From assembly GCF_012844455.2 (NCBI RefSeq), contig NZ_JABBCQ020000004.1, positions 124,001 through 188,000 of the forward strand: a stretch of 64,000 bases of DNA, given 5' to 3'. Shown piece after piece: positions 16,606-18,225 of this stretch. Source of the DNA: Comamonas suwonensis. GTDB lineage: Bacteria; Pseudomonadota; Gammaproteobacteria; Burkholderiales; Burkholderiaceae_C. The notes under the pieces were generated by a model. The model saw only the letters and a program-made list of their open reading frames with translations, had not been told where the DNA came from and did not search any database. The stretch's first letter is position 1. Every line of letters begins with the position of its first letter. A program made the translations under genes and the position numbers.

Positions 16606-17766
16606 TCAGGCGGCCACTTCAGCTTCTTTCACGCTGGCCACAGCCGCCTGACGGCGCTGAAGCACGGCTTGCGACAGCTCTTCCATCGTGGCGACAGAGT
16701 CTTCCCAGTTCAGGCAGGCATCGGTAATGCTCTGGCCATAAGTCAGTTTGCTGACCTCGTCCTTGCCGGGGGTGAATTTCTGGGCTCCGCCGACCAGGTG
16801 GCCTTCAATCATCACACCGAACACTCTGTTCGAGCCACCAGCGATCTGAGCGGCAATGTCGCGTGCGACATCCTTCTGGCGCTCGTGCTGCTTGCTGCTG
16901 TTCGCGTGGCTGCAGTCCACCATCAAGGTCGGCATCAGGCCTGCTGCCTCCAGATCCTTGCAAGCAGCGGCCACATGATCCGCATCATAGTTAGGTGTCT
17001 TACCACCGCGCAAAATGACGTGGCAATCTTGATTGCCACCAGTGTGCACAATTGCGACCTGACCATTCTTGTGCACAGACAGGAAATGGTGACCACGGCT
17101 AGCGGACTGGATGGCATCGGTTGCGATGCGAATATTGCCATCCGTACCATTCTTGAAACCGATGGGTGCCGAGATGCCCGAAGCCAGTTCTCGGTGCACC
17201 TGGCTTTCCGTCGTACGGGCACCAATCGCACCCCAGCTGATCAGGTCGGCGATGTACTGGGGAGAGATCACGTCCAGGAACTCGCTGGCAGCAGGCACAC
17301 CCATGCGGTTGATGTCGATCAGCAGCTGACGTGCAATGCGCAGGCCTTCATCAATGCGGTAGCTCTGGTCTAGGTAGGGGTCGTTAATCAAGCCCTTCCA
17401 GCCCACCGTGGTACGGGGCTTCTCGAAATACACGCGCATCACTACTTCCAGCGTGTCCTTGTACTGCTCACGCACCACGGCCAGGCGGCGGGCGTATTCC
17501 AAAGCCGCAGCCGGATCGTGAATCGAGCAAGGGCCGACGATGACCAGCAGGCGATCATCCTCGGCACGCATGATGTTGTGGATGCTGCGACGGGTGTCGC
17601 TGATCAGCGTCTCCACGGCAGTGCCGCAGATGGGGAAGAAACGAATGAGGTGCTCTGGAGGGGGTAACACTGTGATGTCCTTGATACGTGCGTCATCGGT
17701 CTGGCCTGTCTTGGGAGAACCGGTGCGATACCAGGAGTCAGTGGCGGAAGTGTTCAGAGCAGTCAT
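16606..17766 (-). CDS. aroG: 3-deoxy-7-phosphoheptulonate (DAHP) synthase, class I
   Basis: A 386-residue enzyme that condenses PEP with erythrose 4-phosphate, the entry step of the shikimate pathway. Family motifs are visible: VIVGPCSIHDP near residue 75, YFEKPRTTVGWKGLINDP, SWGAIGARTTESQ, VDCSHANSSK and MIEGHLVGG. The type is the AroF/G/H family. Which aromatic amino acid feeds back on it cannot be read with confidence. Upstream on the same strand lie a leader peptide rich in Phe, Tyr and Trp and an intrinsic terminator, so transcription attenuation is likely. Confidence 0.96.
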   Translation of the reverse strand: MTALNTSATDSWYRTGSPKTGQTDDARIKDITVLPPPEHLIRFFPICGTAVETLISDTRRSIHNIMRAEDDRLLVIVGPCSIHDPAAALEYARRLAVVREQYKDTLEVVMRVYFEKPRTTVGWKGLINDPYLDQSYRIDEGLRIARQLLIDINRMGVPAASEFLDVISPQYIADLISWGAIGARTTESQVHRELASGISAPIGFKNGTDGNIRIATDAIQSASRGHHFLSVHKNGQVAIVHTGGNQDCHVILRGGKTPNYDADHVAAACKDLEAAGLMPTLMVDCSHANSSKQHERQKDVARDIAAQIAGGSNRVFGVMIEGHLVGGAQKFTPGKDEVSKLTYGQSITDACLNWEDSVATMEELSQAVLQRRQAAVASVKEAEVAA

Positions 17767-17824: not shown

Positions 17825-17858
17825 AAAAAAACCGCCGGGCTTTGCAGCTTCGGCGGTT
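17825..17858 (-). terminator. Attenuator terminator in the aroG leader
   Basis: On the minus strand, AACCGCCG and CGGCGGTT arms surround a 13-nt loop and are followed directly by TTTTTTA. It lies between the leader peptide stop and the aroG start, so read-through is required for aroG expression. The sequence GGCGG at 17900-17904, inside the leader peptide codons, could pair with CCGCC of the first arm and act as antiterminator. Confidence 0.8.
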
Positions 17859-17888
17859 CTTTGGGAGGTGTTTGCGGGGTGCGCGCTA

Positions 17889-17951
17889 TTACCTCTCAGC
17901 CGCCTGGGGCGAGAGCCAAAAGTAAAAGAAATAAGCGCGTTGGGTTTGCAT
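17889..17951 (-). CDS. aroG leader peptide, 20 aa, aromatic-rich
   Basis: A short frame starting at ATG 17951 and ending at TAA 17889. Residues 7-12 are Tyr-Phe-Phe-Tyr-Phe-Trp, six aromatic residues in a row, so all three products of the pathway are sensed. The frame ends 30 nt before the attenuator stem and 122 nt before aroG. Ribosome stalling at these codons would leave GGCGG (17900-17904) free to disrupt the terminator. The ribosome site (GAAAGAC) is weak. The logic is that of trp/phe-type leaders; the assignment is my inference from sequence. Confidence 0.75.
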   Translation of the reverse strand: MQTQRAYFFYFWLSPQAAER

Positions 17952-18225
17952 GTCTTTCAATGTAGCACAGCTATTTTGCAATGCAACATCAGCGGCAGGC
18001 GCAAAAGTCTCGCCAAAAAAACACTTCCCCTCTGAAAAAAGGAATTCTTTTGATGATTTTTAAACGCAGTAATTTTGCGTTTTTCTTAATTTTTTAGAAT
18101 TTTATTGAATTGAAAACGGTTTCACCCATAATCAATGCAATTTTTCAGCGAAAATGCCGTATTTATCGCTTAGCCATCACCCCCCTGAAAAACCGATCTT
18201 TTCAACCCTTTTCAAGACCCAGAAA
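17952..18225. other. AT-rich region upstream of the aroG leader
   Basis: Unusually AT-rich for this window, with no coding frame. A possible aroG promoter on the minus strand is TTGCAT, 16 bp, TACATT, but it would place the start very near the leader ATG, so a promoter further upstream is also possible. A small hairpin AAACGCA / TGCGTTT lies near 18061-18080. Confidence 0.45.

Follow-up and report, generated by a model that had tools for sequence, protein, structure and literature searches.

The DAHP synthase gene aroG in the window, by which we mean the whole 64-kb stretch of DNA that was analysed, is preceded by what appears to be a ribosome-mediated transcription attenuator, a reading to which we give a probability of about 0.9. 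The evidence consists of the parts themselves, their conservation, a codon constraint on a run of aromatic codons, an RNA constraint on the word GGCGG, and mutually exclusive pairings with limited covariation. The gene product is a type I DAHP synthase by profile match. The elements of the locus, in window numbering, are as follows.

17981-17986, minus strand: weak -35-like hexamer TTGCAT (3/6 consensus), separated from the -10 by 16 nt; Comamonas and Delftia relatives have a similar one
17959-17964, minus strand: TACATT as -10 hexamer, 7 nt from the leader ATG, with TGTGC ahead of it (extended -10)
17951-17889, minus strand: leader peptide open reading frame (ORF) of 20 codons, MQTQRAYFFYFWLSPQAAER-stop, from the sequence and its relatives
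17934-17939, minus strand: region 1, GC-rich, before the aromatic codons; in the centroid fold its partner in the 1:2 stem is 17882-17887
17933-17916, minus strand: proposed sensing codons, six consecutive, Tyr-Phe-Phe-Tyr-Phe-Trp, from the sequence, codon statistics and a run-length simulation
17891-17904, minus strand: region 2, upstream strand of the antiterminator (GGCGG 17904-17900, GAGAGGU 17897-17891), overlapping the end of the leader ORF
17852-17869, minus strand: region 3, downstream strand of the antiterminator (ACCUCCC 17869-17863, CCGCC 17856-17852)
17858-17825, minus strand: intrinsic terminator (3:4), with stem AACCGCCG/CGGCGGTT (arms 17858-17851 and 17837-17830) and a T tract to 17825
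16606-17766, minus strand: aroG, DAHP synthase, the proposed regulated gene, starting at 17766 (TIGR00034 and PF00793 matches)

When we re-read the sequence, every coordinate that an earlier sequence-only reading had given for the ORF, the aromatic run, GGCGG, the terminator and the order relative to aroG proved correct.

The arrangement resembles the enterobacterial trp and pheA leaders (trpL and pheL), the class in which a short ORF rich in codons for the end product, alternative pairings and an intrinsic terminator stand before the gene. It differs from them in preceding the gene for the first enzyme of the pathway, DAHP synthase, in coding for two or three end products, and in having no visible Shine-Dalgarno (SD) sequence and probably no 5' UTR. 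Leaders that sense several amino acids at once are known at ilvGMEDA (Leu, Val, Ile) and thrABC (Thr, Ile); these share the multivalence, and differ in their genes and in having branched-chain or threonine codons where the aroG leader has aromatic ones. What defines an attenuator is present here: an ORF with codons for the products of the pathway, an intrinsic terminator, and an antiterminator that uses one strand of the terminator and begins within reach of a ribosome stalled on the run. The shared strand is CCGCC (17856-17852), which belongs to both the antiterminator and the 5' arm of the terminator and is complementary to GGCGG. GGCGG mostly lies 8-17 nt past the aromatic run, roughly the place of the leading edge of a ribosome stalled there.

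The start of transcription, the stalling of the ribosome and the response to amino acids are predicted steps, which we picture as follows. RNA polymerase would start at or next to the leader AUG, and a ribosome would load on this leaderless AUG and follow. With ample charged Phe-, Tyr- and Trp-tRNA, the ribosome would pass the aromatic codons and cover region 2; CCGCC would then pair with the later GGCGG, the terminator would form, and transcription would end near 17825. If any of these tRNAs were uncharged, the ribosome would stall on the aromatic codons and leave region 2 free to pair with region 3, so that no terminator would form and aroG would be transcribed. If the leader is not translated, region 2 may be sequestered by the 1:2 stem, which would make termination the default.

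The occurrence of an aromatic leader ORF and a terminator before aroG is not due to chance. All six frames of the window together contain a single run of six or more aromatic codons, and 60 first-order Markov replicates of it contain no such run. The 132 nt from 17951 to 17820 fold with a z score of -2.3, and 3 of 200 shuffles fold equally well. Scans with the NCBIfam and Pfam profiles returned no match for the 20-residue leader peptide. A consensus scan of the window detected neither the terminator, probably because of the scan's loop limit of 8, nor the leader promoter, whose -35 matches at only 3/6 positions.

We chose relatives by AroG protein similarity alone, keeping 80 loci of the 280 relatives found, and scored a leader as a short ORF with at least five aromatic residues within seven codons. 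Such an ORF lies upstream of aroG in 79 of the 80 loci; in the sole exception, L046, the contig begins 31 nt before aroG. The window and these 79 loci form the family set of 80 sequences used for sequence counts, which contains 55 distinct leader peptides. The terminator 3' arm and T tract are present in 80/80, and GGYGG is present in all 80 (five Delftia-type sequences were judged by eye). A DNA search at genus level found the leader in 52 of 53 genomes, the window's genome counted. Across 13 near relatives, identity to the window averages 93% in the aromatic run and 99% in the terminator, compared with 59-63% upstream of the promoter and 73% in the spacer to aroG. The sequence-only reading had predicted this pattern, with aromatic codons, terminator and GGCGG:CCGCC kept while the flanks drift, and had named a lack of conserved aromatic codons in close relatives as the outcome that would speak against it; the comparison bore the prediction out.

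We then asked how far the leader extends over the order. A covariance model, R1, built from 60 family leaders (alignment A1) and applied at E values up to 0.01, matched 99 of 399 genomes of the order, a few of them in the terminator part only. We read 90 of the 95 full-length matches (left out were G104, G112, G380, G351:C119 and G148:C10), and aroG came next after the leader match in 89 of them. A clear leader ORF, with at least five aromatic residues in eight codons, was seen in 85 of the 90, from 14 families (designated here by f-numbers) and 50 genera. The remainder are L200, with no aroG in the stretch read, and L177, L192, L201 and L202, which scored below 5. AroG itself was found in at least 294 of the 399 genomes. 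As a second view, we hand-picked 60 aroG upstream regions without an R1 match across families, from among the matches listed, three of them second copies. Six of these have a leader and terminator and 54 have no leader; counted among the 54 is L214, which has five aromatic residues in eight codons but is without the CCGCC/GGCGG terminator. The trait is thus close to all-or-none, and families f4, f8, f10, f11, f20, f30 and f32 contain both leader-bearing and leader-less aroG. With a further model, R2, built from 64 leaders (alignment A2), we searched 321 genomes of the class. Outside the order it matched at full length four times, always before aroG; six further genomes gave partial matches only, with no aroG in the locus read. 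R1 and R2 contain GGCGG and CCGCC, and the order-wide set is therefore not independent of these elements; the 80 protein-selected sequences are. The named set and the order set share some genomes (L117 is the window; L113 and L003 are the same contig).

We somewhat favour the view that the leader is an old control point, in which one aromatic attenuator would set entry into the shikimate pathway across many betaproteobacteria and a small number of further gammaproteobacterial lineages. In the majority of these families it would be leaderless, and its codon mix (a Phe core, Tyr, and optional Trp) would have been retuned by lineage. Two observations come from f32. Genomes of about 2 Mb in genus g40 (L203-L205) have an AroG 73-74% identical to the window's and no leader, and in G208 (L253, L173) the copy of 62% identity has a leader and the one of 76% has none. 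Presence of the leader is therefore not simply tied to the AroG copy most similar to the window's.

GGCGG or GGUGG was found in 159 of the 165 leaders examined; the six that fail GGYGG or the terminator pattern are L149, L170, L197, L195, L191 and L182. The gap between it and the last aromatic codon is 8-17 nt in 158 of the 159 and 45 nt in one, L194, which has an odd ORF and was retained in the count. Relative to the leader ORF, GGYGG falls in frames 0, 1 and 2 in 73, 7 and 79 of the 159 leaders. Since it occurs in all three frames, we conclude that it is kept as RNA: one RNA word, read as different residues. The alternative pairing GGCGG:CCGCC proposed in the sequence-only reading is thereby supported, by the three frames, by the complementarity to the terminator arm and by one flanking base that varies with both arms.

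Covariation is limited to that flank. Both terminator arms are present in all 60 aligned A1 leaders, where seven stem pairs are invariant, and the stem is partly covarying in A2. At the base adjoining CCGCC, the 64 sequences of A2 form A-U (33) or G-C (25) with the terminator arm, six being unpaired, and U-A (23), C-G (20) or U-G (two) with region 2, nineteen being unpaired. Cells with changes on both sides are more numerous than in any of 500 shuffles and drop when the partners are slid, a measure inflated by related sequences. Counted by pairs, two-sided changes do not outnumber those of the shuffles (184 and 438 of 500 reach the count). The GGCGG:CCGCC clamp is nearly invariant, so that a single position carries the covariation.

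The antiterminator may extend beyond these 5 bp, an extension that is weakly supported in several families. When regions 2 and 3 of 86 leaders were folded, the clamp formed in 86/86, largely as a consequence of how the leaders were selected. With the clamp fixed and the interior shuffled, the mean z score was -1.0 and 31 of 159 leaders reached the 5% level; no leader did so in f3, f4, f8, f11, f30, f32 or f44. The bases beside GGCGG can pair with region 3 at -1 in 115/159 leaders and at -2 in 81/159. We also compared own-species with swapped duplexes, a comparison in which shared genome composition may add to the advantage of own pairs. For the inner 2:3 pairing, 0 of 2000 permutations reached the observed value in the order set, with p = 0.0015 within f1 and 0.0145 with one leader per family; the corresponding values for the 1:2 stem were 0/2000, 0/2000 (f1) and 0.0295. 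The simple covering model fits less well for 33 of the 159 leaders, which end 28-39 nt after the start of GGCGG.

The -10 element of the 80 family sequences is TACATT in 73, TAAAGT in five, and TATATT and TACAGT in one each. It lies 6-8 nt before the leader ATG in 76/80, and the other four have the same spacing to an in-frame ATG 6 nt upstream. The 73 leaders outside the family have TAnnnT at 5-8 nt in 31 instances, or 7.75 per position, versus 0.75 per position at 12-39 nt. It stands 4-9 nt before the ATG in at least one leader of 9 of the 14 families; f3, f8, f11, f20 and f32 have no leader with TAnnnT beside the ATG. SD-like motifs precede 0 of 80 family and 1 of 73 other leader ATGs, versus 28 of 51 aroG starts, a count restricted to loci whose match begins at ATG. 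A leaderless leader mRNA, starting at or within a few nucleotides of the AUG, is likely in the window's family and several others because the -10 lies 6-8 nt before the ATG and no SD is seen. The sequence-only reading had also conceded that a transcription start downstream of the terminator would undo it; the predicted start is upstream, as the promoter-like element precedes the leader. A palindrome, TTGCATTGCAA, covers the -35 (17986-17976), is partly kept in Comamonas and Delftia, and could be an operator as well.

We weighed four other accounts of these features. A U-rich untranslated leader with a terminator, in which the ORF is incidental, would suit the U-rich run and the absence of a visible SD, and in 144 distinct leader ORFs Phe does exceed Leu among TTN codons in frame 1 as well (384 to 65; frame 2 gives 283 to 273). 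The bias in the leader's own frame is far stronger, at 643 Phe to 17 Leu, and Tyr codons number 268 in frame versus 4 and 23 in the other frames; the start codon and its spacing to the promoter are also conserved. We regard this account as having almost no chance of being right. The in-frame TTN count of Phe over Leu indicates that selection acts on the codons of the leader. Another account is a TnaC-like arrest peptide, in which the nascent aromatic chain together with free amino acid, and not uncharged tRNA, stalls the ribosome. The nascent chain is rich in aromatics, and close relatives have Phe and Tyr in a fairly regular order along the run. Across families, however, the order and number of Phe, Tyr and Trp differ widely, and past the run the RNA is conserved but the residues vary in sequence and even in reading frame. 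In the leaders compared, no conserved residues of the TnaC type were found in the nascent chain near the stall site, and we consider an arrest peptide very improbable.

A less remote alternative, doubtful but deserving some weight, is that Phe, or Phe and Tyr, is the true signal and the Trp codon incidental, which would in effect make the aroG leader phe-type. All 73 leaders outside the window's family have Phe, 67 have Tyr and 32 have Trp, and Trp is missing from 7/7 leaders of f20 and 7/8 of f4. The window's AroG also has Ser, where its paralog has Gly, at a position that decides between inhibition by Phe and by Tyr. Against this stands a strong bias towards Trp, so rare a residue: it is kept in 11/11 leaders of f23, and Phe, Tyr and Trp occur together in 77 of the 80 family sequences. 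The claim of the sequence-only reading that a single leader covers all three aromatics thus describes the window's family well and carries over to only 29 of the 73 leaders elsewhere. In the 85 leaders of the order set, Phe occurs in 85, Tyr in 79 and Trp in 44. By their codons, Phe and Tyr are the core of the leader and Trp is optional outside the window's family. No association of Trp in the leader with the copy number of DAHP synthase was supported (15 of 37 single-copy versus 25 of 42 multi-copy genomes; Fisher p = 0.12; G140, whose leader scored under 5, omitted). Finally, the terminated leader RNA or its peptide might act in trans, with or without attenuation of aroG, with which such action would be compatible. 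A short, terminated and probably leaderless transcript is what one would expect for such a role, and the rnTrpL transcript of Sinorhizobium meliloti likewise begins at the ATG of its leader ORF, according to PMC7298713. That system (rnTrpL/peTrpL), compared here by description, differs in being a trp attenuator before trpE(G). Attenuation in cis alone explains the alternative pairing with the terminator, and the length and tail of the peptide are variable; we judge a trans role unlikely.

Attenuators of this kind are already known, and it is the target and the set of amino acids sensed that look new for the predicted aroG attenuator. Rfam models at the gathering score gave no match in the window or in 12 other leader loci, and a permissive scan of the region gave matches at chance level only. 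Attenuators before DAHP synthase genes have been proposed elsewhere: in the accessible parts of these sources, a tyrosine attenuator of aroF in E. coli and Shewanella is given in Table 3 of PMC2659441, citing Camakaris 1980, and Table 7 of PMC1173090 lists predicted attenuators before Vibrio aroAI-alpha_Y > tyrA. These belong to another lineage and operon and to a Tyr-type enzyme, with tyrA in Vibrio, and the same parts of both papers describe no leader peptide of the aroG kind. A genome-wide survey of attenuators (PMC2965389) leaves aroG unnamed in its main text, as does the accessible part of PMC6321483; that of PMC5343134 treats the TyrR and TrpR regulons in gammaproteobacteria. The accessible part of PMC5688073 reports 82 short 5' UTRs in Burkholderia cenocepacia, and that list might possibly include an unrecognised sighting of the aroG leader. 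In the literature searched, which lay largely outside subscription journals and was partly accessible, neither an aroG leader peptide nor RNA-level control of the first step of aromatic synthesis in betaproteobacteria was described.

A leader for several end products at the shared entry enzyme would logically mirror multivalent feedback. The shifts in its Phe, Tyr and Trp content over 14 families offer a natural series for studying attenuator tuning. GGCGG, which occurs in three frames, is a clear example of constraints on RNA and on codons converging within a few bases. As a small gene, the leader would readily escape annotation; it may also help strains built for the production of aromatics.

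We also recorded the DAHP synthases that accompany the leader, in a search covering AroFGH-type and type II enzymes. Among 80 leader-bearing genomes (one of them, G140, scoring 4), the AroFGH-type gene is single, over the cut-off, in 38, and a type II enzyme is present in one. Five genomes of f23 (G202:C1:2562495-2564623, G300, G074, G359 and G388) have two aroG genes in a small tandem operon after the leader. The second DAHP synthase of the window's genome, the copy with Gly for Ser (L002 1414-2553, G000:C55), is 56% identical to AroG and closely follows another gene, with no leader seen upstream of it. Upstream of trpE in the same genome (L278, about 1193-1276, G000:C55), a short ORF contains Trp-Pro-Trp and has TACACT before its ATG; with its two Trp codons, it is a possible, if weak, candidate for a trp leader.
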